A stretch of 36,852 nt of DNA from Planctomycetota bacterium. GTDB lineage: Bacteria; Planctomycetota; Phycisphaerae; Phycisphaerales; UBA1924. The position numbers and the translations under genes were made by a program. The notes below the pieces were generated by a model. The model ran no database searches. It was given only the letters and a program-made list of their open reading frames with translations, and was not told where the DNA came from. The DNA lies in the NCBI GenBank assembly GCA_024276195.1, contig JAJRXR010000053.1:1-36852 (forward strand). Reading direction: 5' to 3'. Positions 7,262-28,642 of the stretch are shown here, piece after piece. Within the stretch, counting starts at the first letter, position 1; each line of letters starts with the position of its first letter.

Positions 7262-8119
7262 ATGCAGGCGCCCATCCGAATCGCAGCTGTCAGCTATCTC
7301 AACACCGCCCCGCTCATCGAGGGCCTCGACACCTGCGCCGATCTCAAGCTCGAGACGCTCGTCCCGGCCCGGATCGTCGATCGCCTGACCCGCACGGGTC
7401 CCGACCGGGCCGACATCGGGCTCGTCTCCGTCATCGACGCCGCCCGGAGCGAGCACCCCCTGGCCCTGCTCACCTGCGGCATGATCGGGTGCGAGGGCGA
7501 AACCCTGACCGTCCGCCTCTTTGCCTCGGTCGAGCCGCAGCGCATCACCCGCCTGCACGTCGATACCGACAGCCACACCTCCTCCGTGCTCGCCCGGGTC
7601 ATCCTCAGCGAGCGGTACGCGGCTGAGCCCGAGATCATCCCCTTCGACGCCCAGGCCTGCGCCCGCGACGGGGCAGACTGGCCCGAGGCCGTGGTGCTCA
7701 TCGGCGACAAGGTCGTCACCTCCGCCCACGCCGCCACGCGGGCCAAGACCCAGATCGATCTGGGCTCCGCCTGGCACGAGCTGACCGGGCTGCCGTTTGT
7801 GTACGCCCTGTGGATGTGCCGCCAGTCCGAGATGGACTCAGACCGGATCCGGGCGGGAGCCGCCCTGCTCGACCGCCAGCGCCGGCGAAACCTCGCCCGA
7901 CTCGACGCTGTCGTCTCGCTCCGGGCCAGCGCCAAGGGCTGGCCCGACGATCTGGCCCGCCGGTACGTAGGCGATCTGCTCCGCTACGACGTCGGCCCGC
8001 GCGAGCGCGAAGGCGTCGCTGTCTTCCTCGCCAAAGCCGCGGCCCTGGGCCTGGCCCCGAGCGCGTCGCCCGTGTGGGCGCCCGCGGACGACCCGGCGCT
8101 CTCCGCGAGCCCGAGCTGA
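7262..8119 (+). CDS. mqnA: Menaquinone biosynthesis protein MqnA (chorismate dehydratase)
   Basis: 285 residues, the usual length for MqnA. The N-terminal IAAVSYLNTAPLIEGL is the family signature. It is followed by a periplasmic-binding-protein-like fold (LVPARIVDRL, DIGLVSVIDA, LLTCGMIGCEGE, VVLIGDKVVTS, LGSAWHELTGLPFVYALWM). MqnA dehydrates chorismate to 3-[(1-carboxyvinyl)oxy]benzoate, the first step of the futalosine route to menaquinone, in the cytoplasm. A menaquinone-using complex I is consistent with the nuo genes later in the window. ATG 7262 is preferred over an upstream in-frame start at 7151, because it matches the family N-terminus and sits 5 nt after a -10-like hexamer. Its stop TGA overlaps the ATG of the next gene (TGATG), implying translational coupling. 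Confidence 0.9.
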   Translation: MQAPIRIAAVSYLNTAPLIEGLDTCADLKLETLVPARIVDRLTRTGPDRADIGLVSVIDAARSEHPLALLTCGMIGCEGETLTVRLFASVEPQRITRLHVDTDSHTSSVLARVILSERYAAEPEIIPFDAQACARDGADWPEAVVLIGDKVVTSAHAATRAKTQIDLGSAWHELTGLPFVYALWMCRQSEMDSDRIRAGAALLDRQRRRNLARLDAVVSLRASAKGWPDDLARRYVGDLLRYDVGPREREGVAVFLAKAAALGLAPSASPVWAPADDPALSASPS

Positions 8120-9795
8120 TGCCCCCGCTGCCGCGACTGCGCATCGGCGCGCTCGACGATCTCGCCAAACAGCTCCGCTTTGCGCCGCGCGAGGCCCTGG
8201 ACCGGCACATCGCCAGCGCCGAACAGCTCGCCTCCGAGCTTGAACCCGCCCGCGTCTACCCCGAAGACTGGTTCATCTTCCGCCTCACGGCCTACCGCCC
8301 CGAGATCGACGAGCCCGCCTCGCTCGTGGGCGAGGCGTTGCTGGGCGATCTCTCCGCGCTCGTCGAGCGTCTGAGCATTGCTGCGGGTCGCACGGGCGAG
8401 GACGCCGGCCCGGGCGCCATGAGCATCGAACAGCTCAGCCAGCGCTGGAGCGTGAGCCGCAAGACGATCGAACGCTACCGCAGGCGCGGGCTTATCGCCC
8501 ACCGCGTGCTCGTCGCGGGCGGCGCCCAGCGCCTGATCTTCCCACTGGCCAACGTCGAATCGTTCGAGCAACGCGAGCGGGCGTTGGTTGCTCGGGCCTC
8601 ATCGTTCACCCGCATCGACGAGCAGCTCAGCGAGACCATCCAGCGCCGCGCGCGCCGGTACCGCGCCTCGCTCGGGCTCTCGCTCAACGAGGCCGCAGCC
8701 CAGCTCGCCCGCAGATACAACCGCTCGCACGAGGGCGTGCGCCAGGTCCTGCGCCGCGCCGACGAGCGAGCGATCAGCCAGGGACATGAGCCCGTCTTCA
8801 CCGAGGCGCCCCCCCCGGATGAGCGCGAGCGCCGCGTCATCCGTCGCGCCGTCCAGCGCGGCATCGAACCCAGCGAGATCGCCCGGCGCACCGGGCGAGC
8901 GCGCGTCAGCGTCGTCCGATCGCTCAACCAGGCCCGCGCCGACCTGCTCCTCAGCCTCGACCTGTCCACCCCGCCGATCGTGACCTTTGAGCGCGACAAC
9001 GCCGCCGAGGTCCTGCTCGCGGGCGAGCCGGTCCGCTCGGGCCTGTGCGTCAGGGCCCCGACCGATCTGCGCGAGCTGAGCGAGGCCTCTCGCCTGCGCG
9101 CCGGCGATGACCCCAGCGCCGAGCGTGAGCGCATCTTCGCGTACCACTATCTCCGCTGGCGAGCCGCGCGTGCTGTCGCCTCGATCGACCGGGCCGCGCC
9201 CTCGGGCGAAACCATCGACGAGTGCGAAACACGCCTCCGCTGGGCCTCACGCCTCAAGGTCTTGCTCGTCGCCAGCCAGCTCCACCTCATCCTCGCCTCG
9301 TTCGACCGGGGCGGGCACCCGAGCGCCGCGATGCCCGCGCCCGAGCTCCGGCGCGCCATCCGCCTCGCCATCGACGCGATCGGGTCCAGCGTGGACCGCT
9401 TCGACCCCTCGCGCGGCGCCCGACTGGCCGCGCCGTGCGCCATGACCCTCTTGCGCCTCACCAGCGCCTGGAAAGACCAGCCCCGCGCCCACTCACCCCG
9501 GCGCGCCGCCCCCCGGCTCTCGCCCGGCACGCCCGTGCCCGACTGGACCCGATCCGTCTGCCCCTGGCAGCGCCAGCTCGACCCCGACCCGAGATTCCCG
9601 GGCGTGCTCGCCCGCCTGGGCGAGCGCGACGCGCTCGTGCTCGCCCGACGGTTCGCTCTGGACGGGCGCCCGCCCGAAACCCTCTCGGCCCTCGCACAGC
9701 GCCTCGGGACCACCCGCGTTCACGCCGCTCGATTCGAGCGCAGCGCCATCCGCGCGGCCCTTAACGCCGCGCGATCCACACACGTTTCAGGATAA
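8119..9795 (+). CDS. Sigma-70-derived multi-HTH protein with degenerate core
   Basis: 558 residues. A helix-turn-helix lies at about 101-131 (SIEQLSQRWSVSRKTIERYR). Two further HTH-like segments are at about 188-212 (NEAAAQLARRYNRSHEGVRQ) and 245-268 (GIEPSEIARRTGRARVSVVR). From about residue 335 the order matches the sigma-70 type I associate with planctomycetes: ERIFAYHYLRWRAA, LRWASRLKVLLVASQLHLIL, then AIGSSVDRFDPSRGARLAAP. The normally conserved F-S-T-Y-A and aromatic residues of region 2.3/2.4 are lost. The C-terminus (LGERDALVLARRFALDG ... TLSALAQRLGTTRVHAARFE) fits region 4. It probably contacts RNA polymerase or DNA, but the altered -10-binding segment argues against an ordinary sigma factor. 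Its ATG overlaps the mqnA stop. Sigma relationship 0.75; function unknown. Confidence 0.75.
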   Translation: MPPLPRLRIGALDDLAKQLRFAPREALDRHIASAEQLASELEPARVYPEDWFIFRLTAYRPEIDEPASLVGEALLGDLSALVERLSIAAGRTGEDAGPGAMSIEQLSQRWSVSRKTIERYRRRGLIAHRVLVAGGAQRLIFPLANVESFEQRERALVARASSFTRIDEQLSETIQRRARRYRASLGLSLNEAAAQLARRYNRSHEGVRQVLRRADERAISQGHEPVFTEAPPPDERERRVIRRAVQRGIEPSEIARRTGRARVSVVRSLNQARADLLLSLDLSTPPIVTFERDNAAEVLLAGEPVRSGLCVRAPTDLRELSEASRLRAGDDPSAERERIFAYHYLRWRAARAVASIDRAAPSGETIDECETRLRWASRLKVLLVASQLHLILASFDRGGHPSAAMPAPELRRAIRLAIDAIGSSVDRFDPSRGARLAAPCAMTLLRLTSAWKDQPRAHSPRRAAPRLSPGTPVPDWTRSVCPWQRQLDPDPRFPGVLARLGERDALVLARRFALDGRPPETLSALAQRLGTTRVHAARFERSAIRAALNAARSTHVSG

Positions 9796-16384: not shown

Positions 16385-16918
16385 ATGGGACGATCTCGGA
16401 GTGGCCCAATCAGCAGGCGTTTTAGGAGAGATCGACTGCTCCAGCGCATCCGTCGCTCCAAGGCCCACCAGCCAGGGAATCCCACGTGCGTGAAGTGCGG
16501 CTACGACCTCCGAGGGCTTAATAAAGAGCTGACCTGCCCTGAATGCCACACGACGAGCGATCCGGCCTGGTACGCGCCCCCGTTCGCCGCAGGGTCAATC
16601 GCGCGACGGCGCCTCGTGGCACGGACGATTGGAAGCACTTGGCTGCTCGCGTTCGTGCACGCGGTACTCACGGGCGTGATACTCGCCTCCTGCCTGAGCG
16701 TGGGACCCGACGTATGTCCTTGGTCGGAGCTGCTGGTGCTCGCCGGGCAGCTCGCGGTACTCGGCGGCGTCGCGTCTGTGGCCACATTCCAGAAGCGACG
16801 GCTCTGCTGGGGTCACCGCCGCGGGGTGATCGCGCTGACCGCGTTTCTCTTCTTTGTCATTGTGGGTCTTGCCGCCGAAATTGCCCTCGTCAGCGGTTCC
16901 TCGTCTCACCCCGGCTAA
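16385..16918 (+). CDS. Zinc-ribbon membrane protein, planctomycete type
   Basis: 177 residues. A basic N-terminus precedes a four-cysteine zinc ribbon at about 35-55 (CVKCGYDLRGL ... CPECH). Three hydrophobic helices follow, at about 83-106, 115-130 and 148-170. Proteins beginning with CxxCGYDLRGL..x..CPEC are common in Planctomycetota and of unknown function. ATG 16385 is the only in-frame ATG before the ribbon and lies 6 nt after TAGCAT, so the start is well supported. The 3' end overlaps the convergent cysS end by 29 bases (16890-16918). Confidence 0.75.
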   Translation: MGRSRSGPISRRFRRDRLLQRIRRSKAHQPGNPTCVKCGYDLRGLNKELTCPECHTTSDPAWYAPPFAAGSIARRRLVARTIGSTWLLAFVHAVLTGVILASCLSVGPDVCPWSELLVLAGQLAVLGGVASVATFQKRRLCWGHRRGVIALTAFLFFVIVGLAAEIALVSGSSSHPG

Positions 16919-18488
16919 CTTCCACCTTTCCGCCCGCAACATCCTTGATCGCCAGCCCCATCCCCGCGAGCCGGTCGCGGATCTCGTCCGAACGGGCGTA
17001 GTCCTTGCCTTTGCGGGCCGCCGCCCGCTCACTCAGCAGCGCCTCGACCTCGGGCGAGGGATCCACGCCCTGGTAGACGCCGATCTCCGTCGCCTTCGTC
17101 TCAGCCCGTTCGAGCGAGAGGACACCAAGGACCGAGTCGAACTCTCTTATCATCGCTGCGTCAGCGCGCGATGGCGACTTTGTCGAGTTGATCCAACTGT
17201 TGACAGCGCCGATCGCGCCCGAGATGTTCAGATCGTCGCTTAGCGCCCCCGCGAACGCCTCGCGCACGCTCGTATCAGCATCCCCAGCGCCGCCCCCATC
17301 GCCCTGCTCAACGAACCGGCGCCATCGCTCCACCTGCCTGCCCGAGTCCTTGAGTCCCTGCATCGAAAAATCCGCGTTCGACCGGTAGTGCGACTTGATG
17401 AGTTCCAGGCGGAGCGCCGCCGGCTCGATCCCCTGCGCGAACAGGTCTCTGGGCGTGAAGAACGTCCCCTTGCTCTTGGACATCTTCGCGCCCTCGACCA
17501 TGAGGAACCGCGGGTGGAACCAGTGCCTGGCGAAGCGGTCATGCCCGGTGAAGCAGCACGATTGCGCCCGCTCGCACTCGTGGTGGGGGAAGATGTTGTC
17601 CTCACCGCCTGAGTGCAGGTCGATGACGTCGCCGAGGGCGTTGCGCGCCATGACCGAGCACTCGATGTGCCAGCCGGGGTACCCCTCGCCCACGCGCTCG
17701 CCATCGATCACCGGCCCGTCCCATCGCATCAGGTGGCTCGCATCGCTCTTCCAGAGCAGGAAATCCGCCGGGTGTCGCTTGGACGCCTGGTTCCGGTCGC
17801 TGACGCGCCCCCCGGCGCCCCCCCGGAGCTTGTCGATCGTGTTGCCCGAGAGCTCGCCGTACGCCTCGTACTTCTGCACATCAAAGTAGACCGCGTCGCC
17901 CGCGCGCTAGGCGAAGCCCTTCGAGGCCAGCGATTCGATCATCGAGACCATGCCCTCGATGTTCTCCGTCGCCCGCGGCATCCGCCCCGGATCATCCGCG
18001 ACCTCGCTGGCCACCTTCAAGCCAAGAGCCCTCGCGTCCTCGATAAACCGATCGGCGTAGAACGACGCGATCGCGCGCGGGTCGCGCGGGTCGATGTCCA
18101 CGCCCTCGGGCAGCGTGCCCGACTTCTTCGCTTCTTCGAGCCGACGCCCCGCCACCTCCATCTTGTCCTCGCCCGAGCCGTCGGCCGCCTCGTCGTCGGT
18201 CATATGCCCCACGTCCGTGATGTTCATCACATGCACAACCTCCCGAGGCCCCGCGTGCGCCGCGCCCGATTCGTCGGTCAGCGTGCACAGCGGGCTCTCG
18301 AGCCAGCGCCGGAGCAGATCCGCAGCCAGGAACGAGCGAAAGTTGCCGATGTGCGCGTCGTCGTACACCGTCTGGCCGCATGTATAAAACGTCACACGCG
18401 ACGGATCGCCTGCGACAACCGCTTCCGCTTTCTTTGAGAGCGTGTTGTAAAGCGTCAGCGGGGTCGATGGTCGGCTTTCCTGGCTCAT
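16890..18488 (-). CDS. cysS: Cysteinyl-tRNA synthetase, interrupted by an in-frame amber codon
   Basis: Attaches cysteine to tRNA-Cys in the cytoplasm; class I synthetase. The frame is continuous from ATG 18488 to TGA 16890 (532 residues if read through) except for TAG at 17909-17907 (codon 194). Upstream part: YTCGQTVYDDAHIGNFRSF with the HIGH-type motif and first zinc Cys, then NITDVGHMTDDEA. Downstream part: GWHIECSVMA (zinc Cys), FPHHECERAQS (zinc His and Glu) and KMSKSKG. All catalytic motifs are intact. The amber follows ESLASKGFA and precedes RAGDAVYFDV. Family members usually have Tyr at this point (KGxAY), so one base change from TAC or TAT explains it. ORFs 17907-18488 and 16890-17879 would be called separately. 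A sequencing error, a recent nonsense mutation or suppression are the options. The gene lies 10 bases after the CNNM gene. Confidence 0.88.
17907..17909 (-). other. In-frame amber codon at a conserved Tyr position of cysS
   Basis: Plus-strand CTA at 17907-17909 reads TAG in the cysS frame. Flanking codons on both sides encode conserved CysRS sequence with no frameshift. TAG is used as an ordinary stop by other genes here (for example at 989-991, 4313-4315 and 6165-6163), so a general reassignment of TAG is not supported. Confidence 0.9.
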
Positions 18489-18498
18489 AGACGGGATC

Positions 18499-19842
18499 TT
18501 ACCCCTCGCCCTGCGCCCCGCCCTCGGGCGCGTCCACCAGCGCCGCCTCCACGCGCACCCGCACCACCCGCGTCGCCTCGGCCTCGAGCACCCTCACCCG
18601 CACGACCTTGTCCTCGAACGTGTGCTCGAACGTCTCGCCCGCCTCCGGGATCCGCCCCAGCGCGCGGACCACGAACCCGCCCACCGTGTCGTACTCGTCC
18701 GACTCGGGCAGCTCCAGGCCCAGCGCCTCCAGCTCGTCGTTCGCATCGTCGATGTGCGCCCGCGCATCAATCGTCGCGGCCCGCTCGCGCTCGTGAACCT
18801 CGACCCCCGCCAGATCCTCGTCGTCCTCGTACTCGTCCTGGATCTCGCCGAACACCTCCTCGACGATGTCCTCGATCGTCACCAGCCCCGAAGTCCCCCC
18901 ATACTCGTCGGCGATAAACGCGATATGCACCTTCGCCGCCAGCAGCTCGCTGAGCAGCTCCCGAACCGTCTTCGTCTCCGGCACAAACACCGCGTCACGC
19001 AGGATCTCTCTCAGCACAAACGGACGCCCGTTGCCCGCGTGCAGAATGATCCAACGCAGCAGATCCTTCGCGTACAACACCCCCACAACCTTGTCCAGGT
19101 TCTCCTCGTACACCGGCATCCGCGAATGCCCGATCTCCTCGACCAGGCGCTTGATCTCGACGAGGTCGTCCGTGTACTCGATCGCCTCGATCTCCGTCCG
19201 CGGCGTCATCACCTGCTCGGCCGTCGTTGACCGGAACTCCACCACCGCCTCGATCATGTCCCGCTCGACCTCGTCCAGTCGCCCGCCCCGCTCGCTCTCC
19301 TCGACCGCCAGGAGCAGATCCGCCTCGATCTCCTCGTGCTCGCCGAGCGCCTCGCTGCCCGTCAGGCGTCGGATCACCTCGTCGATGAACCGGGCGATCA
19401 ATCGCGCCGGCGTCATCAGGACGTGCCACACACGAACCGCCCGCGAGGCGAGCATCACCGCCCGCTCGCCCACGTGCTCGCCCACCGCGATCGGCACGAG
19501 CACGCCAAAGACCCAGACCAACGCCGCGCCAAGCCCCAGGCCCAGCCCGACCTCCAGCCACCCGTGCGCCACGCTCCCGCGCATCGCCCCGACCCACATG
19601 ACCGAGGCGAGCGCCACAACCAGATTGCACAAAACGCTCGGCAGCGCCGCCGCCGCCGCGTGCCCGTCGATGTCCGCGAGGATCTCCGCCCCACGCCGCC
19701 GGAGCCCATCCGAGCCGGACCGCTCCACCAGCGCCTCAAACCGCGCCCGCGACATCCGCACCAACGCCTGCTGCACAGACGCCAGCGCAGCGCCAAGCAC
19801 CAGCGCCCCAGCCCCGATGAAAAACCAGACCGTCGCGCTCAC
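18499..19842 (-). CDS. CNNM/CorC-HlyC family membrane protein with CBS pair
   Basis: 447 residues. The N-terminal DUF21/CNNM membrane domain has about four helices in residues 1-135. A CBS-domain pair follows at about 205-330 (VMTPRTEIEAIEYTDDLVEI, GHSRMPVYEENLDKVVGVLY, IADEYGGTSGLVTIEDIVEE). A CorC/HlyC C-terminal domain covers about 345-435 (DEYDTVGGFVVRALGRIPEAG). Members are linked to Mg2+/Co2+ homeostasis and bind adenine nucleotides through the CBS pair; the older name hemolysin is not functionally informative. The GTG start overlaps the stop of ybeY by four bases (GTGA), and cysS begins 10 bases after its stop, so ybeY, this gene and cysS look like one operon. Confidence 0.88.
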   Translation of the reverse strand: MSATVWFFIGAGALVLGAALASVQQALVRMSRARFEALVERSGSDGLRRRGAEILADIDGHAAAAALPSVLCNLVVALASVMWVGAMRGSVAHGWLEVGLGLGLGAALVWVFGVLVPIAVGEHVGERAVMLASRAVRVWHVLMTPARLIARFIDEVIRRLTGSEALGEHEEIEADLLLAVEESERGGRLDEVERDMIEAVVEFRSTTAEQVMTPRTEIEAIEYTDDLVEIKRLVEEIGHSRMPVYEENLDKVVGVLYAKDLLRWIILHAGNGRPFVLREILRDAVFVPETKTVRELLSELLAAKVHIAFIADEYGGTSGLVTIEDIVEEVFGEIQDEYEDDEDLAGVEVHERERAATIDARAHIDDANDELEALGLELPESDEYDTVGGFVVRALGRIPEAGETFEHTFEDKVVRVRVLEAEATRVVRVRVEAALVDAPEGGAQGEG

Positions 19843-20509: not shown

Positions 20510-21904
20510 CTAGCTGTGCGCCCCCACCGTCATCTTCACAGGCACGCTCGTCCGGCGCACCCGCGCCTCAAACTCACCCCGGTACTTGTTCATGATCGTC
20601 CGCGTCGCCCAGTTGTTCCCGTCCGCCAGCCCGCAGATCGTCGTCCCCGGCATCGAACCCATGCTCGTCGCCACCTCCAGCGCCAGGTCCAGATCCTTCG
20701 TCCGCGCGTCACCCTCCTCGATCCGGCACAACAACTGGTACAACCACCCCGACCCCTCGCGGCACGGCGTGCACTGACCACAGCTCTCGTGCTTGTAAAA
20801 CCTGGCGATGTTCCGCGCCACCGCGACCATGTCCGTGTCCTCGTCGAACACCGTCGGGCACGCCGTGCCCAATCCCAGCACGTTGTACTTGCGCCCGATA
20901 TCGAAATCCAGCTCGGCCTCGTACTGGTCAGGCCCGAGGATGCCCATGGACACGCCCCCGGGGATGGCGCCCTTGAACTTCTTGCCCCCGCGCATCCCGC
21001 CGCAGAACTCTTCGACCAGCGTCCGGATCGGCATCCCCAGCTCGAACTCGTACACGCCCGGGCGCTCGACATGCCCGGACACTCCCATCAGCTTCGTCCC
21101 GTAGCTCGGCGGCCCACCGATGGACGACTCGACGCCCTGCTCGCAGAACCACTCGCTGCCGTGCTCCAAAATACTTGGCAGGTGCGCCAGCGTCTCGACG
21201 TTGTTGATGATCGTCGGCTTGCCAAACAACCCCTGAATCGCCGGGAAGGGCGGCTTGATCCGGGGCCAACCCCGCTTGCCCTCGATCGCCTCGAGCAGCG
21301 CCGTCTCCTCGCCGCAGATGTACGCCCCCGCGCCGCGGTGCACATAGCACTCCGCGACGAACGCGTCCTGCGAGGCGTTGGTCTGGTTGAGCAGGCCCTT
21401 GGCGCCGAAGATCCCGTGCTCGTACGCCTCTTTGATCGCGTTCTCGAGCACATGCGCCTGGTGGTGGTACTCGCCGCGGATAAAGATGTACGCCTTCGTC
21501 AGGCGGCACGCGTACATGCAGATCGCGATGCCCTCAAGCATCAGGTGCGGATCAAAGTCCATCAGCAACCGATCCTTGAACGTGCCCGGCTCCGACTCAT
21601 CCGCGTTGATCGCCAGATACCGCTCGCCCGCGTCCTTGCCCGCTTCGAGCTTGGGCAGGAACGTCCACTTGACGCCGCACGGGAACCCCGCCCCGCCCCG
21701 CCCGCGCAAAACCGAGTCCTTGACCACCCCCGTCACCTCATCGGGCTTCATGCCCAGCGCCTTGCGCAGCGACTCGTACCCGCCCGTGCGCACAAACTCG
21801 TCGTACCCGACGATGTGCCGGTCCTTGGGATCGCCGAACGGCGCCGTCGGGATGCGCTTGCACAGGGCGTGAGCGCGGGTCGTGTCGTAGACCTTCTTGG
21901 GCAT
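20510..21904 (-). CDS. nuoF: NADH-quinone oxidoreductase subunit F
   Basis: 464 residues, full length for NuoF. The FMN/NADH-binding part contains LRGRGGAGFPCGVKW, YLAINADESEPGTFKDR and GAGAYICGEETALLEAIEG. The C-terminal 4Fe-4S (N3) site has ESCGQCTPCREGSGW and GTTICGLAD. NuoF accepts electrons from NADH and passes them through FMN and Fe-S clusters to NuoE/NuoG in respiratory complex I, on the cytoplasmic arm. A TAGCAT hexamer at 21955-21950 followed by GGAGGCGG before ATG 21904 suggests its own promoter and a leader of roughly 40 nt. It is separated from nuoE by lipoprotein genes and a PH-like gene rather than adjoining it. Confidence 0.95.
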   Translation of the reverse strand: MPKKVYDTTRAHALCKRIPTAPFGDPKDRHIVGYDEFVRTGGYESLRKALGMKPDEVTGVVKDSVLRGRGGAGFPCGVKWTFLPKLEAGKDAGERYLAINADESEPGTFKDRLLMDFDPHLMLEGIAICMYACRLTKAYIFIRGEYHHQAHVLENAIKEAYEHGIFGAKGLLNQTNASQDAFVAECYVHRGAGAYICGEETALLEAIEGKRGWPRIKPPFPAIQGLFGKPTIINNVETLAHLPSILEHGSEWFCEQGVESSIGGPPSYGTKLMGVSGHVERPGVYEFELGMPIRTLVEEFCGGMRGGKKFKGAIPGGVSMGILGPDQYEAELDFDIGRKYNVLGLGTACPTVFDEDTDMVAVARNIARFYKHESCGQCTPCREGSGWLYQLLCRIEEGDARTKDLDLALEVATSMGSMPGTTICGLADGNNWATRTIMNKYRGEFEARVRRTSVPVKMTVGAHS

Positions 21905-22011
21905 AGGTGAAACCGCCTCCGGCTTGGCGTGTGCGACAGATCGGGGGCGATGCTAGGTGACACCGCCTGCGGGTCGAGCGTTGGGCCGCCAAGGACCCAA
22001 CCGCCAGACCC

Positions 22012-22464
22012 CTACGGCTGAATCCCGCCTCCCCACGTCCGCCTTGTCGGGTCCGCCGGCACCCCCCGCAGCCCGCCCCGCGCCGTGTCCGCCTCCACGA
22101 TCTCCCGCTCGAGTTTCAGCGACGCCTTGAACCCGCTCACCCGCAGCAGATATGGCCCCGGCGGGCTCATCGTCAAAATCGTTGGCGCCCCGCCCCCGAC
22201 GGGCTCGACCCGGAACTCCACCCCCCGGTCCGCCCCGCCCTCCGGGATCGCCAGCGAGAACCCGCCCGACGTCCCCGGCGCCAGGTCCACCTGCGCGACC
22301 GACTCGCCCAGCGCGTCAGCCCCGTTCTCGAGCGTCGCCTCGATCCTCAGGCTCGTGTCCGAGAGGTTCGCGATGCTCACCGCCGCGCTCCGGGCAGCGC
22401 CCGAAGAGCAGGCGCCCAGCGTCCCGCACGCGAAAAGCCCAACCGCCACGATCACACGCTTCAT
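22012..22464 (-). CDS. Small lipoprotein B of a local three-member set
   Basis: Not recognised as a named family. 150 residues. The leader KRVIVAVGLFACGTLGAC gives a lipidated Cys at residue 19. The mature part begins with a beta-like segment (AAVSIANLSDTSLRIEATL) that resembles the N-termini of the lipoproteins at 22464-22982 (VQIGIENQTGVTIRASL) and 24452-24838 (YSVELRNESGRPVVASV). Start: ATG 22464 overlaps the upstream stop (TGATG), and a GTG at 22467 is a possible alternative. It is translationally coupled to the preceding lipoprotein and ends 107 bases before nuoF. It is probably periplasmic and membrane-tethered. Confidence 0.72.
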   Translation of the reverse strand: MKRVIVAVGLFACGTLGACSSGAARSAAVSIANLSDTSLRIEATLENGADALGESVAQVDLAPGTSGGFSLAIPEGGADRGVEFRVEPVGGGAPTILTMSPPGPYLLRVSGFKASLKLEREIVEADTARGGLRGVPADPTRRTWGGGIQP

Positions 22465-22982
22465 CACAGGTCCTCCGCCGGCCAGTACTGGTACGGGATC
22501 TCCTCGATCGGGATCTCATCGCTCTGGGCCACGATCAGCAGCGGCTTCTTCCCCTGAGGCTGGACCACCACCACCCGCACCGGAGCCGGCCCGAGCAGCT
22601 CAAACCAACGCACACGCTGGTCCGTCCATGTCGGTGTCACCACCTCCAGGCGCAACCGGATGATCCGCTCGTCCGCGTCGCTCCTCGAAAAAATCGACCG
22701 CACCGGGCGCTTCACGCCCGCGACCTTCTCCGTCCCTCGCGTGATCGTCACGCGCTCGCCGTCGGCGATCGGCGTCACACCCAGATCCCCCGGGCTGTGC
22801 TCGCCCACGTGCAGGCTCGCCCGGATCGTCACGCCCGTCTGGTTCTCGATCCCGATCTGCACCAGCCCGCGCCGCGCCGGCTCATCGCCCGACGTTGTCG
22901 ATTCGAGAAAGCACCCGCCGATCGCCAGCGCCGCCCCGCCCAGCACCAGCAGCACAGCCGCTCTAAGGGTCATCCGCATCAT
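22464..22982 (-). CDS. Small lipoprotein A of a local three-member set
   Basis: Not recognised as a named family. 172 residues. The leader (LVLGGAALAIGGC) gives a lipidated Cys at residue 24. The mature part is predicted mostly beta (VQIGIENQTGVTIRASLHVG, ERVTITRGTEKVAG, IIRLRLEVVTPTW, RVVVVQPQGKKPLLIVAQS). It overlaps the upstream small gene by four bases (ATGA) and the downstream lipoprotein by one base, so the three form one translational unit. The recurring IxNxSG/TG start of the mature domain links it to lipoproteins B and C. Function is unknown; a periplasmic beta-sandwich is the structural guess. Confidence 0.72.
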   Translation of the reverse strand: MMRMTLRAAVLLVLGGAALAIGGCFLESTTSGDEPARRGLVQIGIENQTGVTIRASLHVGEHSPGDLGVTPIADGERVTITRGTEKVAGVKRPVRSIFSRSDADERIIRLRLEVVTPTWTDQRVRWFELLGPAPVRVVVVQPQGKKPLLIVAQSDEIPIEEIPYQYWPAEDL

Positions 22983-23203
22983 GCGTCGTTCTCCGGGGCG
23001 CCCTCGTCCGTGGCGCCGGGTCTGATCTCGATTTCTTCGATCGTCGTCCGCCGAAGGATCACGCCCTCGCGCTCCTCCTGCTCGACCTCGCGCCTAACCT
23101 CGACACGCTCACGCGCCGGCGCCGGCGAGCCGATCGCTCCCCAGACATGCCCGACAAACCGCCCGATCCCGCGCATCCTCGAAATTGGCTTCTGATCCGT
23201 CAT
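22979..23203 (-). CDS. Small charged hypothetical protein
   Basis: Not recognised. About 74 residues from ATG 23203; an in-frame GTG at 23227 is the longer option but would begin almost on the divergent gene's start. It has a short Gly/Trp-containing segment (GIGRFVGHVWGAIGSP) and then a highly charged, probably helical stretch (ARERVEVRREVEQEEREGVI). There is no signal peptide. It is the first gene of the unit with the two lipoproteins (4-bp overlap with the next start), which is the main support for it being real. Confidence 0.55.
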   Translation of the reverse strand: MTDQKPISRMRGIGRFVGHVWGAIGSPAPARERVEVRREVEQEEREGVILRRTTIEEIEIRPGATDEGAPENDA

Positions 23204-23228
23204 ACGCACATATCGTACCCTCGGCACG

Positions 23229-23828
23229 ATGCTTCATGACACGCCAACACCCGCCCCCGCCCCCGACCAAACCCAGGCCCCCGCCCCGCCCGCCGAGCCC
23301 CGCTTCACCGAAACCCAGCGCCTCGCCCAGAACCGCCTCGCCCGCGTCGTTCTCCTCTGCACCTCGATCATCACGGGCCTGATCTTCCTCGCCATCGGCT
23401 TCACCTCGCCCCAGCCCGTGTGGACGACGCTCATCCCGGCCTGGGTCGGGATCGCGGTTGTCATGCCTGCGGCTCTCACACGCCTGAAAATGCGAACCGA
23501 AGTCACCGATTCAGAGCTGATCGTCCGCTGGGCGCCCTTCTACCGCAAGCGCATCCCGCTGGGCGACATCGAGCTGGGCGAGCCCGTCCGCTACCGCCCC
23601 ATCAGCGACGCGGGCGGCTGGGGGATCAAGCACTCGCGCAAGTTCGGCCTCGTCCTTAACGTCTTTGGCGACCGGGGCGTCAAAGTCACCGCCGCCAACA
23701 AGCGCCTGCTCATCGGCAGCCAACGCCCCGATGAACTCGCCAGCGCCATCCTTCAAGGCGCTGTCGAGCACAACGACGATGCTTTGTTGAACGGATCGGG
23801 ATCGGACGAGCCATCAAACAACACCTAG
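23229..23828 (+). CDS. Membrane protein with bacterial PH-like domain
   Basis: 199 residues. A Pro/Ala-rich N-terminus (PAPAPDQTQAPAPPAEP) precedes two hydrophobic helices at about 40-60 and 65-85. A bPH-type module follows: LKMRTEVTDSELIVRWAPFY, then RKRIPLGDIELGEPVRYRP and VFGDRGVKVTAANKRLLIGS. PH-like domains of this kind occur in membrane proteins of uncertain role. The gene ends tail-to-tail with nuoE; the two TAG stops share the palindrome CTAG at 23825-23828, leaving no room for a terminator between them. Confidence 0.7.
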   Translation: MLHDTPTPAPAPDQTQAPAPPAEPRFTETQRLAQNRLARVVLLCTSIITGLIFLAIGFTSPQPVWTTLIPAWVGIAVVMPAALTRLKMRTEVTDSELIVRWAPFYRKRIPLGDIELGEPVRYRPISDAGGWGIKHSRKFGLVLNVFGDRGVKVTAANKRLLIGSQRPDELASAILQGAVEHNDDALLNGSGSDEPSNNT

Positions 23829-24397
23829 CTCGAATGATGCTCCGCGCCCGTCCCACCCTTGGTGTACGTCCCCGCCCGGACACGTTCGATCAACTCTGCC
23901 GCCCGGTCGGGCGTGAGGTTCTCGTGCAGGTCCTCATCGATCAGCGCCACCGGCGCCGTCCCGCACGAGCCCAGGCACTCGAGCTCGACAAGCGTGAACT
24001 TCCCGTCCTCGGTCGTCTCGCCCACGTCGATGTCCAGAACCTCTTTGATGCGCTCTGTCACCGCCGTCGCCTGACAGAACTCGCACGCGATCGACCGGCA
24101 CACCGAGACCAGACACTCGCCCTTGCGGTTGGTCCAGTACTCCTCGTAGAAGCTGGCCGTGTCGAGCACCTCGCTCGGCGGGATCTCCAGGAACTCGCCG
24201 ATCTCAAGCATCGCCTGCGCCGGGATCCACCCGCAGGCGTGCTGGATCATGTGCAGCGCGGGCAGCAGCGCCCCGTGCTTCGTCTCAAACCGGGGCAGGT
24301 ACTCGTCGCGCAGCTCCGCCCGCATCGCATCGGTCAGGTAAGGCTCGGCGCGCCGCTGAACCGTGTCCGTGCCCGATTGTTTCGTGATCCACGCCAT
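23825..24397 (-). CDS. nuoE: NADH-quinone oxidoreductase subunit E
   Basis: 190 residues, typical for NuoE. The N-terminal helical part (LLPALHMIQHACGWIPAQAM) precedes the thioredoxin-like 2Fe-2S (N1a) domain. Its ligands are Cys100 and Cys105 (VSVCRSIACEFC) and Cys141 and Cys145 (ECLGSCG). It pairs with NuoF in the NADH-oxidising module of complex I. ATG 24397 has GGAGG about 6 nt upstream. TAGAGT at 24438-24433 is a likely -10, giving a leader of about 30 nt. It is flanked by a lipoprotein upstream and overlaps the stop of the convergent PH-like gene, so it is not co-transcribed directly with nuoF unless the message runs through about 2 kb. Confidence 0.93.
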   Translation of the reverse strand: MAWITKQSGTDTVQRRAEPYLTDAMRAELRDEYLPRFETKHGALLPALHMIQHACGWIPAQAMLEIGEFLEIPPSEVLDTASFYEEYWTNRKGECLVSVCRSIACEFCQATAVTERIKEVLDIDVGETTEDGKFTLVELECLGSCGTAPVALIDEDLHENLTPDRAAELIERVRAGTYTKGGTGAEHHSS

Positions 24398-24451
24398 CGA
24401 CGCCTCCAGAACTCCACCAACGGGGAGAACAGACTCTAGGAGCCAACCCGC

Positions 24452-24838
24452 CTACTCGACCCGCCGGAGCACGGCCGCCTCCCACGAATCCACGCCGCCC
24501 GCCTCGACCACAAAGATGTTCAAGCCGCGCCGCAGGCGCGTCTCCGTCGCCAGGGCTCCCAGATCGCCAGGACGCCGGACCGAAACCCGCACGCCCCCCA
24601 TCCCGACCCACTCGAACGGACCAAGCTCGCCCGTGCTCCCGCTCGGAATGCGCTTCTGGGCAAGCGTGCGCTCGCCGTCAAAGGCCCCGCCCCGCACCAC
24701 GCTCGCCACCACCGGGCGCCCGCTCTCGTTGCGCAGCTCCACGCTGTACCCGCTCTGGCACGCCCCCAGAACCCCCAGCACCACCCCCAATGCCATCCCC
24801 AGCACTGTCACCCGAACCCTCAACCGCGTCTGGCTCAT
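24452..24838 (-). CDS. Small lipoprotein C of a local three-member set
   Basis: Not recognised as a named family. 128 residues from ATG 24838, chosen because AGAAGGA lies about 6 nt upstream; ATG 24841 and a longer start at 24865 also exist. The leader (LGMALGVVLGVLGAC) gives a lipidated Cys at residue 27. The mature domain starts YSVELRNESGRPVVASVVRG, like lipoproteins A and B, and ends GLNIFVVEAGGVDSWEAAVL. It lies 54 bases before nuoE on the same strand and may be transcribed with it. A TAGACT hexamer at 24880-24875 gives a leader of about 30-40 nt. Confidence 0.72.
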   Translation of the reverse strand: MSQTRLRVRVTVLGMALGVVLGVLGACQSGYSVELRNESGRPVVASVVRGGAFDGERTLAQKRIPSGSTGELGPFEWVGMGGVRVSVRRPGDLGALATETRLRRGLNIFVVEAGGVDSWEAAVLRRVE

Positions 24839-24874
24839 CATCAATCCTTCTCCCGGGGGAACCAAGCCCGGGTC

Positions 24875-24891
24875 AGTCTACACTCCGCCCG
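24875..24891. promoter_or_regulatory. Overlapping divergent -10 hexamers
   Basis: TAGACT on the minus strand (24880-24875) points to lipoprotein C, which has a leader with a Shine-Dalgarno. TACACT on the plus strand (24879-24884) is followed by 7 nt and ATG 24892 of the protease, with no Shine-Dalgarno. The two hexamers overlap by two bases. Confidence 0.45.
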
Positions 24892-25671
24892 ATGCGCCCC
24901 CGCCGCGAGAATCTCCCCCACATCGGCCCCAGGGCACGCCTCGCCCTGGCGGCGCTTCCCCTCGCGTTTCTCGCAATCCTGGGCGCCGCCGGGTGTACCG
25001 CCGTCCTGCCCATCAGCGACGACCAGCTCGACCGCATCCGCAAACGCTCCGCCTGCGTGATGCCCCTGACCTCCGTCACCAGCGCCGGCGCCAGCTTCTT
25101 CGTCACCAGAAACTGGGGCCTTACCGCGGCCCACGTCGTTGACGACGCCCCCCCCGGCGCCCACATCACCATCACCAGCTACGACACGGGCGACACCGTC
25201 AACCTCGCCCTGGCCTTGCCCCCCGGCGCCCGCCTCGACGACCGCGCCCCCGAAGACGACTGGGCCGTCATCTACCGCGCCGACGCCCGCGACCCCGTCC
25301 CCCTCCACTGCGTCACCCCCATCGACCCCGACTACACCCCCAAGATCGGCGACGAGCTCTTCACCGTCGGCCTCCTCCGCCAAGACTTCCAGAACGCCCC
25401 CGAAGACCGCTCCATCCGCACCCTCCGCCTCCGCGTTGTCGATCCCCCGCAAGACCGCGAGCGCTCCGACGAGCTCATCTGGATGCGCTGGCCTCACGAC
25501 TTCGCGCCCCGAGGCTTCTCAGGCGGCCCCGTCTTCGCCGAGTCCGCCTCGGGCGAACTCGTCGCCGTGGGTCTCAACATCCAGGCCGCAAAGCGCGGCT
25601 GGCGCTGGTGGCTGGTCGCAAGACGCATCACACCGGAGATGGTTCGGTTCGCCGAGCGCGCGTCGAGGTAA
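24892..25671 (+). CDS. Lipoprotein trypsin-like serine protease
   Basis: 259 residues. The lipoprotein leader (LALAALPLAFLAILGAAGC) places the lipidated Cys at residue 35. The chymotrypsin-like triad is visible: His81 in LTAAHVV, Asp123 in EDDWAVI and Ser210 in GFSGGPV. No PDZ domain follows, so it is a simple DegP-type catalytic domain on a membrane anchor, probably cutting proteins in the periplasm or at the outer membrane. ATG 24892 is preferred over the in-frame 24790, because it gives the leader and sits 7 nt after TACACT. It is divergent from lipoprotein C across about 50 bases. Substrate unknown. Confidence 0.85.
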   Translation: MRPRRENLPHIGPRARLALAALPLAFLAILGAAGCTAVLPISDDQLDRIRKRSACVMPLTSVTSAGASFFVTRNWGLTAAHVVDDAPPGAHITITSYDTGDTVNLALALPPGARLDDRAPEDDWAVIYRADARDPVPLHCVTPIDPDYTPKIGDELFTVGLLRQDFQNAPEDRSIRTLRLRVVDPPQDRERSDELIWMRWPHDFAPRGFSGGPVFAESASGELVAVGLNIQAAKRGWRWWLVARRITPEMVRFAERASR

Positions 25672-25831
25672 CGCCCGCGAGTGGCCCCCACATCAAGCCA
25701 GACCGTCCTGGAGAGCTTTCAGGGGCGGTTGCGGGCGTTGGTATGCAATCCAGGGGGATTGTTCGCGACGTTGGGCTGCACGCAACGTAAGATCGTCAGC
25801 GGGGTGAGGATGGCGCCCCTAGGAGTTGCCC

Positions 25832-26911
25832 ATGTCCACCCCACCAAGGTCCAAGATCCGACAAGTGGTACTGAGTGTTCTTCCCGGCGATGGTCTTCGT
25901 GCACTATCTAATGCCGAGATCTACGAGCGAGTTGCAGACTCGCTAGGACTCATGCCGAGCGATCTAGAGGTTATCGAGCCAGATGGGCGATCCAAGTTTG
26001 AACACGAAGTCCAATGGGCTCTGAACGACCTGAAGTCGGCAGGCGAAGCTACCACAAAGCGACGAGGCTATTGGTCTCGTTTCGATCAATCTGACGAATC
26101 TACTGCCGTGTGGACACCGACAGATCTTGCAATTCTTCCTCCAAGGGCACAACTGGCGCTCGCGTCACGCTGCGCAATAAGAGTTGCGCCTCTCTTTGCT
26201 CACTCCTGGCCTGATGCCGACAAGACGTTCAGTCTCGCTGTTGAACACGCGCTCTTCATCGCACAAGACGCTTGTTCTGCCCAGGTGTTCACTCCCGCAG
26301 ACGGCACTAAAGCGTACGCCGCGAGTGGCGGAGCGATAGATGCAAGCGACGCCTCCAACAGCACCCCGAGCGCTTCCCACGCCGCATGGGCGGCCGCGAT
26401 TGCTGCTCGCGTTGCAGGTAAGTACATACGCGGCGAATCGCAGATTAGTGCTGACGTCCTCATCGTCATCGAGTACGCTCTCCAGTCCGCAGGGTCATCA
26501 CAGGAATGGAGAGCCCGCACGAATGAGGCGATTCGTTTCGATTATTTACTCCTGCTGGCGCTGTACGGAATTGCTCCAGATGGCACACGCACTGGAGCCG
26601 ACGACCTAGCTGGAGATAACGCTCCCATCCCGCACGAGACGTTCGGCCCGCTCTGGCCGGAGGGCGAGCCGGAAGGATGGCCCGAAAGCTGGCGCGAACC
26701 AAGCCTTGGTGGTACAAATTATGAATTGACTGTGTCCGGCCCAGACGGCGTCGATGCCGATGTCGTCAGAAGCCGCACTGTCAAGCTACTGCGCTTGATG
26801 GATCGGTACGTTCGTGCTTCCGGCGGTCGCGGTGTCCGTCTTTCTGACGACACTGGAGTATCCGAACAGTCTCCATGCCACAGCCCGCAGCCCGTCGGCG
26901 GGGGCATGTGA
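25832..26911 (+). CDS. Protein with Mrr-N-like winged helix and C-terminal helical domain
   Basis: 359 residues. Residues 1-85 resemble the winged-helix N-terminal domain of Mrr restriction proteins: KIRQVVLSVLPGDG, AEIYERVADSLGL, then the family-like ending VQWALNDLKSAGEA ... RRGYWSRF. Residues about 103-250 are Ala-rich and helical (LALASRCAIRVAPLFAHSWP, AAWAAAIAARVAGKYIRG), faintly like Imm5-type immunity domains. FGPLWPEGEPEGWPESW follows near 271-287. No nuclease motif is visible, so this is not a complete Mrr enzyme. The start at 25832 is supported by AGGAG at 25821-25825, 6 nt upstream. Its stop overlaps the next ATG (TGATG). Third-position use is more A/T-rich than in the nuo genes around it, suggesting an acquired cassette. 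Confidence 0.7.
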   Translation: MSTPPRSKIRQVVLSVLPGDGLRALSNAEIYERVADSLGLMPSDLEVIEPDGRSKFEHEVQWALNDLKSAGEATTKRRGYWSRFDQSDESTAVWTPTDLAILPPRAQLALASRCAIRVAPLFAHSWPDADKTFSLAVEHALFIAQDACSAQVFTPADGTKAYAASGGAIDASDASNSTPSASHAAWAAAIAARVAGKYIRGESQISADVLIVIEYALQSAGSSQEWRARTNEAIRFDYLLLLALYGIAPDGTRTGADDLAGDNAPIPHETFGPLWPEGEPEGWPESWREPSLGGTNYELTVSGPDGVDADVVRSRTVKLLRLMDRYVRASGGRGVRLSDDTGVSEQSPCHSPQPVGGGM

Positions 26912-27348
26912 TGCCGACCAAACGTACACGCTCGATAAAGCACAAGATCGTCACGAACCGCCTCCGTATCGGCGGTGACGAACGGGACAAAAAACCTATC
27001 TGGGAGCGCCTTCTGGCAATCGTCATGGAGAAGCTGCCGCTCACCGGAGCTTGGGAGCGAACAACCGAAGAGACGATTATCGAAGATATTTTTGAATCAG
27101 ACTCCGAAGAGATCGTCACGGTTAACGAACAGGCTGAGGCACACCTCCAAAAGGATGCGCAAAAGGCTCTTGAAGCCGAAGCGCGCACAGCAGAACGTCA
27201 ATCGCTCATCTCTGGTCTTGGTGACAAGCCCTCGACCGCTAACCCCGAAGATGTTGCAGATGCAATGCGAAATCTCGCCAAGGAGATTCGCTCCATGCGA
27301 GATGACGGCTATGAGATCAAGCTGCGCGAACTCGATCCTGGCAAGTAA
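26911..27348 (+). CDS. Small charged partner protein of the Mrr-N-like gene
   Basis: Not recognised. 145 residues, highly charged. It has a basic N-terminus (PTKRTRSIKHKIVTNRLRIG), an acidic middle (TTEETIIEDIFESDSEEIVT) and a long probable coiled-coil helix (EQAEAHLQKDAQKALEAEAR). The C-terminal segment is EDVADAMRNLAKEIRSMRDD. It is translationally coupled to the preceding gene through a TGATG overlap. Base composition is unusually low here: 25 of 60 bases in 27061-27120 are G or C by hand count. It ends 4 bases before the stop of the convergent nuoD. The two genes form a compact cassette; a role together is inferred from coupling only. Confidence 0.68.
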   Translation: MPTKRTRSIKHKIVTNRLRIGGDERDKKPIWERLLAIVMEKLPLTGAWERTTEETIIEDIFESDSEEIVTVNEQAEAHLQKDAQKALEAEARTAERQSLISGLGDKPSTANPEDVADAMRNLAKEIRSMRDDGYEIKLRELDPGK

Positions 27349-27352
27349 GTCT

Positions 27353-28642
27353 CTACCGATCCAGCTCCGCCGCCACGATGTTCAGACTCCCCAGCACCGC
27401 CACAACATCCGCGAGCATGTGCCCCTCGATCAGCGGCGCCATCAACTGATAGTTCATGAAGCTCGGCCCACGCGTCCGCACACGCCAGGGCCTGGGCGAG
27501 CCGTCCGAGACGATGTGGTAGCCCAGCTCGCCGTTGGCCGTTTCCTGGGCCGCATAACACTCGGCCACCGGCGGCGTCCACCCCCGGTTGCTCATCACCA
27601 GCTCGAAGTGCTGGATCAGGCCTTCAATGGACCCGTACACCTGGCTCTTGTCCGGCTTGACCATCTTCGAGTCCGCGAACACGTTCACATCGCCGCCCGG
27701 GATGTCGTCGATCAGCTGGTCGATGATCTTCGTTGACTGGCGGATCTCCTCCAGGCGCACGCGGAAGCGGGCGTAGGTGTCGCCCTCCTCGCTGATCGGC
27801 ACGCTGAACTTCACCGCCTCGGCCCCCTGCCCGTCCCAGTTGTCGGCGTAGCACAGGTAGGGCTCGTCCTTGCGCAGATCACGCACCACGCCCGAGGCCC
27901 GCGCGATCGGGCCGGACGAACTCCACCCGACCGCGTCCTCCTTGCTCAAGACGCCCACATTCCGCGTGCGATCCAGGAAAATCCGGTTGCGGCTGAGCAG
28001 CCCGTCAACCTCCTTGATCGCCTGCGCACAGTCGTCGTGCAAGAACGCCTTGACCATCCGCTTGAACGTCTCCTCGTCGGGCAGGTCGTGCATCAGCCCG
28101 CCGACGCGCGTCCAGTCCGGGTGGAACCGCTGGCCCGAGATGTAATCGACGATGTCGTAAATCTTCTCGCGCGGGTTGAACGCGTACAGGAATCCTGTAA
28201 ACGCGCCCAGGTCCAGCCCGGCCGCGCCGACGCACAGCAGATGGTCCTGGATCCGCCCCATCTCCGCCATGATCGTCCGCAGCACCTTGCACCGCGGCGT
28301 GATGTCGATCCCGAACAGCGTCTCCACCGCCCCGTGCCACGCGATGTCGTTGCTGATCGGGCTCAGGTAGTTCATCCGAGACACGATCGTGACGTACTGG
28401 TTGTAGTCCAGATGCTCGCCGAGCTTCTCGAAGCCCGAGTGCAGATATCCGATATGCGGCGTGCACCGCGCGATCCGCTCGCCGTCGAGTTCGAGAACCA
28501 ACCGCAGCGTCGTGTGCGTGGCCGGGTGCTGGGGGCCGAAGTTCAGGACCCACCGGTCGCCGGTATCGACGTGCCCGGACAGATATTCGGTCGTGTCGGC
28601 GTCGGGCGTGAGCCCCTGCTCAGGCGAAAGCGTGTACGGCAC
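27353..28642 (-). CDS. nuoD: NADH-quinone oxidoreductase subunit D
   Basis: 429 residues, standard for a separate NuoD. Landmarks are LNFGPQHPATHTTLRLVLEL with the quinone-site His, GYLHSGFEKLGEHLDYNQ, LRTIMAEMGRIQDHLL and the C-terminal GMLADVVAVLGSLN-type region (here HMLADVVAVLGSL). NuoD forms the quinone-reducing site at the junction of the peripheral and membrane arms of complex I. The GTG start at 28642 has GAGGAG 6 nt upstream, which decides it over the out-of-frame ATG at 28644. No nuoC or nuoB flanks it: upstream is a GH13 amylase and downstream the convergent two-gene cassette. The complex I genes are therefore scattered in this genome. Confidence 0.95.
   Translation of the reverse strand: MPYTLSPEQGLTPDADTTEYLSGHVDTGDRWVLNFGPQHPATHTTLRLVLELDGERIARCTPHIGYLHSGFEKLGEHLDYNQYVTIVSRMNYLSPISNDIAWHGAVETLFGIDITPRCKVLRTIMAEMGRIQDHLLCVGAAGLDLGAFTGFLYAFNPREKIYDIVDYISGQRFHPDWTRVGGLMHDLPDEETFKRMVKAFLHDDCAQAIKEVDGLLSRNRIFLDRTRNVGVLSKEDAVGWSSSGPIARASGVVRDLRKDEPYLCYADNWDGQGAEAVKFSVPISEEGDTYARFRVRLEEIRQSTKIIDQLIDDIPGGDVNVFADSKMVKPDKSQVYGSIEGLIQHFELVMSNRGWTPPVAECYAAQETANGELGYHIVSDGSPRPWRVRTRGPSFMNYQLMAPLIEGHMLADVVAVLGSLNIVAAELDR

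Follow-up and report, generated by a model that had tools for sequence, protein, structure and literature searches.

In this Planctomycetota draft genome (G000; 88 contigs, 3.04 Mb, 91% complete), the gene for cysteinyl-tRNA synthetase (CysRS), cysS, is interrupted by a single in-frame TAG that, to judge from the sequence comparisons below, is very probably one wrong base in the draft-assembly consensus. The cysS frame (16890..18488, minus strand) runs from an ATG at 18488 to a TGA at 16890 of the window, by which we mean the whole 36,852-nucleotide stretch analysed, and the TAG lies at codon 194 (17907..17909, minus strand). In the explanation that we favor, a wrong base in the consensus would have turned the codon for CysRS Tyr 194 into TAG, and the organism itself most likely has a functional, uninterrupted cysS that encodes Tyr there. 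Base errors occur in draft or metagenome-assembled genomes, and this draft is probably metagenome-assembled; that the stops described here are errors and not real mutations is what we infer from their pattern. A strain variant, a suppressor tRNA, an unseen second cysS, and a split enzyme are each possible but less likely than a base error. Were the stops real, it would be remarkable for an essential synthetase to depend on read-through for its production.

The NCBIfam cysS profile TIGR00435 (466 positions) matches both pieces of the gene, which cover its consecutive positions 1–133 and 140–461; neither piece alone reaches the whole-protein cut-off. Specifically, the N-terminal piece of 193 amino acids (17910..18488, minus strand) carries HIGN at residue 46, and the C-terminal piece of 338 codons (16893..17906, minus strand) carries HIEC at 274, HHE at 302, and KMSKS at 335, so that the HIGH-type and KMSKS motifs and the Cys and His residues of the zinc site are all in place. 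The orthologues in the congeners G001, G002, and G003 are 76–83% identical and have an open frame, and G002 and G001 share the gene order around cysS. In a list that may leave out the source genome itself, the named sequences that match the C-terminal piece best are from Phycisphaerales and other Planctomycetota metagenome-assembled genomes at ∼60% identity. Thus, with both pieces matching, HIGN and KMSKS in place and gene order kept, the gene resembles a bacterial cysS of the TIGR00435 type, from which it differs in the TAG that breaks the reading frame at a Tyr column and in a Gln at residue 39. The latter (CAG, 18372..18374, minus strand, in the CGxTVYD motif) replaces a residue that is Pro in 56 of the 57 relatives with a letter there, the exception being Leu in L070, and is possibly a second base error.

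The earlier note on this DNA had described cysS as intact except for one amber codon at a conserved tyrosine position, and both parts of that description are confirmed. The codon-194 column is Tyr in all 58 relatives of the alignment, the codon being TAC or TAT in every one of 73 rows (some duplicate loci included), with TAC in G001 and G002 and TAT in G003; the aligned sequence of 1li5, which we take to be Escherichia coli CysRS, likewise shows Tyr. A family search found cysS matches in 158 of 164 genomes, and among the matches listed a stop is present in three: this genome, G004, and G151. In G004 and G151 the stop, when read, precedes the start codon, and stops in the CysRS matches of other genomes lie, where read, at match ends that run into the natural terminator.

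Purifying selection on cysS is normal on both sides of the TAG and is as strong on the C-terminal piece as on the N-terminal piece. For the whole gene dN/dS is 0.19 against G002 and 0.18 against G003; it is 0.22 and 0.18, respectively, before the stop and 0.175 and 0.185 after it, and seven window neighbors of cysS give 0.07 to 0.32. Moreover, of the 121 columns invariant in all other CysRS sequences, this genome departs at one, the TAG, a kind of departure that is not rare, being seen once or twice in 13 of the 58 relatives. These data imply that the TAG is very recent, is read through, or is absent from the organism. A GTG at 17879 opens a frame ten codons past the stop, from which a second polypeptide might start and assemble with the first. 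Such a two-part CysRS is scarcely credible, as the residues that separate the stop from the GTG (RAGDAVYFDV) hardly differ in the three congeners, where the frame is open, and no ribosome-binding site was seen by eye.

Internal stops were sought as stops flanked, in the same frame, by strong coding signal on both sides, with two settings across 1.215 Mb of this genome (40%, window included), and with the second of them across 0.80 Mb of two control congeners (G001, 455 kb; G002, 344 kb). Tried at random positions in long, clearly coding frames, the coding measure accepted 92% of them, and internal stops were separated from operon junctions by hand, partly by eye. The first setting returned 30 rows in this genome, of which 10 were judged internal (8 TAG, 2 TAA), and the second 28 rows, again with 10 internal (9 TAG, 1 TAA). 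The stop in L150 came from the first setting only and that in L265 from the second only, and the union holds 11 internal stops in 1.215 Mb: 9 TAG, 2 TAA, and no TGA. Under the second setting none of the 6 rows in the 455 kb of G001 and none of the 7 rows in the 344 kb of G002 was an internal stop, where 6.8 would be expected at the rate of this genome (P of none ∼0.001); that setting detected gene ends at similar frequency in all three genomes (838 in G000, 340 in G001, and 253 in G002).

The genes interrupted by TAG are cysS, truB, dxs, an MBL-fold gene, a MacB-like permease, a TPR protein, a class V aminotransferase, a Na/H exchanger-type gene, and L149, and those interrupted by TAA encode a Na/Ala symporter and a KDO transferase; cysS, dxs, and the KDO transferase gene are thought hard to lose. 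The ten stops beyond cysS (8 TAG and 2 TAA) lie at L258:17837-17839, L148:15632-15634, L241:18509-18511, L238:7241-7243, L253:17018-17020, L273:12449-12451, L265:13679-13681, L149:659-661, L259:7431-7433, and L150:8800-8802. For truB, TPR, and exchanger/TrkA_N, Pfam detects the domain before as well as after the stop; for dxs, the aminotransferase, the MBL-fold and MacB-like genes, the symporter, and the KDO transferase, it detects the named family on the downstream piece. The remaining gene, L149, is an unnamed membrane protein with no match in G001–G003 and a downstream piece without a Pfam match. Two TGA rows, in L155 and L267, were rejected as internal stops and read as gene ends, because in each the Pfam domain upstream of the stop is matched to no more than six positions short of its own end (RibD_C to 191 of 197 in L155 and HATPase_c to 108 of 111 in L267) and no family follows; a third, L260, was left out of the count, having no family on either side. 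A homology comparison with congeners (43 and 55 open reading frames) yielded no trusted internal stop outside cysS; its other stops, like the other stop rows of the window, look like upstream extensions or shadow frames.

At the stop sites the congeners carry Ser in dxs (TCG/AGC), the MacB-like gene (TCG), and the MBL-fold gene (TCC/TCG), Glu in the TPR protein (GAG), the class V aminotransferase (GAG), and the symporter (GAG/GAA), Trp in the Na/H exchanger-type gene (TGG), Glu or Ala in truB, and Ala or Arg in the KDO transferase, and none of the aligned congener hits listed has a stop there. The sites thus appear to be drawn from codons that a single base change can turn into a stop, and not from the codons of one amino acid. 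Random single substitutions in the codons of this genome would be expected to give 65% TAG, 17% TAA, and 18% TGA, and the observed 9:2:0 fits that spectrum (P of at least nine TAG, 0.20; P of no TGA, 0.11), so that the amber excess among the internal stops is attributable to codon use. An excess of nonsense codons over the congeners is accompanied by a random-substitution spectrum, in a set sorted partly by eye. Isolated in-frame stops, mixed codon origin, conserved genes, and codon-use proportions are all shared with base errors in draft or metagenome-assembled genomes, and an error rate that we estimate at ∼4 per 10,000 bases would give the observed stops. In a genome with GC-rich codons, random base errors produce mainly TAG, and for that reason a set of in-frame ambers can mimic recoding; asking whether one amino acid is replaced or many is a cheap check.

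The same set of stops bears on the idea that UAG is read through by a suppressor tRNA, in the version of the earlier note one inserting Tyr. The preponderance of TAG (9 of the 11 internal stops in 1.215 Mb, the others being TAA) and the conservation on either side of the cysS stop would suit it. An in-frame UAG in several conserved genes is also a feature of natural amber suppression and UAG recoding. However, two of the internal stops are TAA, codon use by itself predicts the TAG share, and the Ser, Glu, and Trp found in congeners at other in-frame TAGs of the assembly argue against a Tyr-specific reading, internal UAGs here standing for Tyr, Ser, Glu, and Trp and not for one amino acid. The translation apparatus differs from such systems as well. 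Covariance-model searching gives 44 RF00005 matches in the draft, where ARAGORN reads 45 candidates, and none of the 44 tRNAs of the 91%-complete draft has a CUA anticodon by ARAGORN. Genes for RF1, with PAT, and RF2, with SPF, tripeptides that we take to mark the two factors, are both present, and TAG ends 177 of the 739 detected genes, so that UAG is not rare as a terminator and RF1 is not lost. With no CUA tRNA and mixed congener residues, a Tyr-inserting suppressor was rejected, and read-through by any suppressor tRNA is very improbable. Just as improbable is a near-neutral state in which many premature UAG and a few UAA codons in needed genes would be tolerated through unspecific read-through. 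The cysS TAG is not good evidence for special reading of stop codons, because it most likely belongs to a large set of one-base mistakes in the assembly.

The RF1-type gene itself (L171, G000:C34:24312-25379) scores below the NCBIfam prfA curated cut-off, as do its counterparts in all 21 genomes searched, and naming RF1 by the cut-off alone would thus miss genes. Its 354 bits compare with 331–397 in 19 relatives (G004 lists the RF2 type only), and a degenerate RF1 was rejected since a subthreshold score is normal here.

A further possibility raised in the earlier note, that the organism has a second cysS or makes Cys-tRNA by the Sep-tRNA route, found no support. The draft, 91% complete, yielded no second cysS. 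PF01406 has four matches besides cysS. One passes the 27-bit cut-off (32.2 bits) and shares a 1201-amino acid frame with another of the four; the remaining two belong to frames of 628 and 713 amino acids. All were rejected as a second cysS and taken, by inference, for other class I synthetases. The Sep-tRNA route was rejected because SepRS (best 19.6 bits against a curated cut-off of 380.65) and SepCysS (best 25.5 bits against 365.25) are far below their cut-offs in the draft, each of which was passed by 2 of 14 control genomes. An ordinary pseudogene, backed by a second cysS or another Cys-tRNA route in the unassembled part of the genome, would draw on the incompleteness of the draft and on exceptions among 60 relatives: in G059 the C-terminal piece of CysRS matches twice, the additional match (42% identity) lying on another contig (G059:C31:20163-20765), and G042 has no match with the CysRS query. 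Against this stand the 48 relatives with one match and the 10 in which it falls into two or three pieces of a single contig, together with the results for SepRS and SepCysS and the unrelaxed selection on cysS, and we consider such a pseudogene very improbable.

Somewhat less improbable, yet still unlikely, is a stop that is real but confined to one strain or a minority of cells, through a recent nonsense mutation or the collapse of mixed strains, with the growing cells cysS-intact. A consensus can mix strains, and the dN/dS values bear no sign of long decay. Nevertheless, the same explanation would have to cover about ten further nonsense codons, some in genes thought hard to lose, and the congener samples have no internal stops.

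A wrong base was among the explanations offered by the earlier note, and it gains support both from the ∼10 further in-frame stops of mixed origin and from a damaged tRNA gene. The gene for tRNA-Leu(CAA) (L156:15497-15579; G000:C68:25497-25579; minus strand) has a six-base anticodon loop, with one A fewer than in relatives. Among 20 matched relatives, 14 were read, and ARAGORN called CAA, with the usual loop, in 13 of them. The one-base deletion is likely another assembly error. The counterpart in G003, a 60%-complete genome (L184, G003:C108), has a different change, an unusual loop reading TTAAAAA, and ARAGORN does not call it.

Some observations speak against a base error: cysS is the sole gene judged interrupted within the window, and a frameshift scan of 415 kb flagged 25 places of which none is believed, so that the assembly cannot be called grossly bad. 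Five of the 25 lack an explanation by a nearby stop and start and look like antisense frames. A pattern of substitutions only is what short-read errors also look like.

The upstream neighbor of cysS is an open frame for a CNNM/CBS/CorC_HlyC protein (18502..19842, minus strand). Genes of the NuoF, NuoE, and NuoD types of complex I (Complex1_51K, 2Fe-2S_thioredx, and Complex1_49kDa) lie apart from one another on the minus strand at 20513–28642 of the window, separated by other frames that occupy both strands. In addition, a 558-amino acid protein encoded at 8119–9792 on the plus strand, conserved in congeners, matches HTH_17 and Sigma70_r4 just below cut-off and is possibly a sigma-like regulator.
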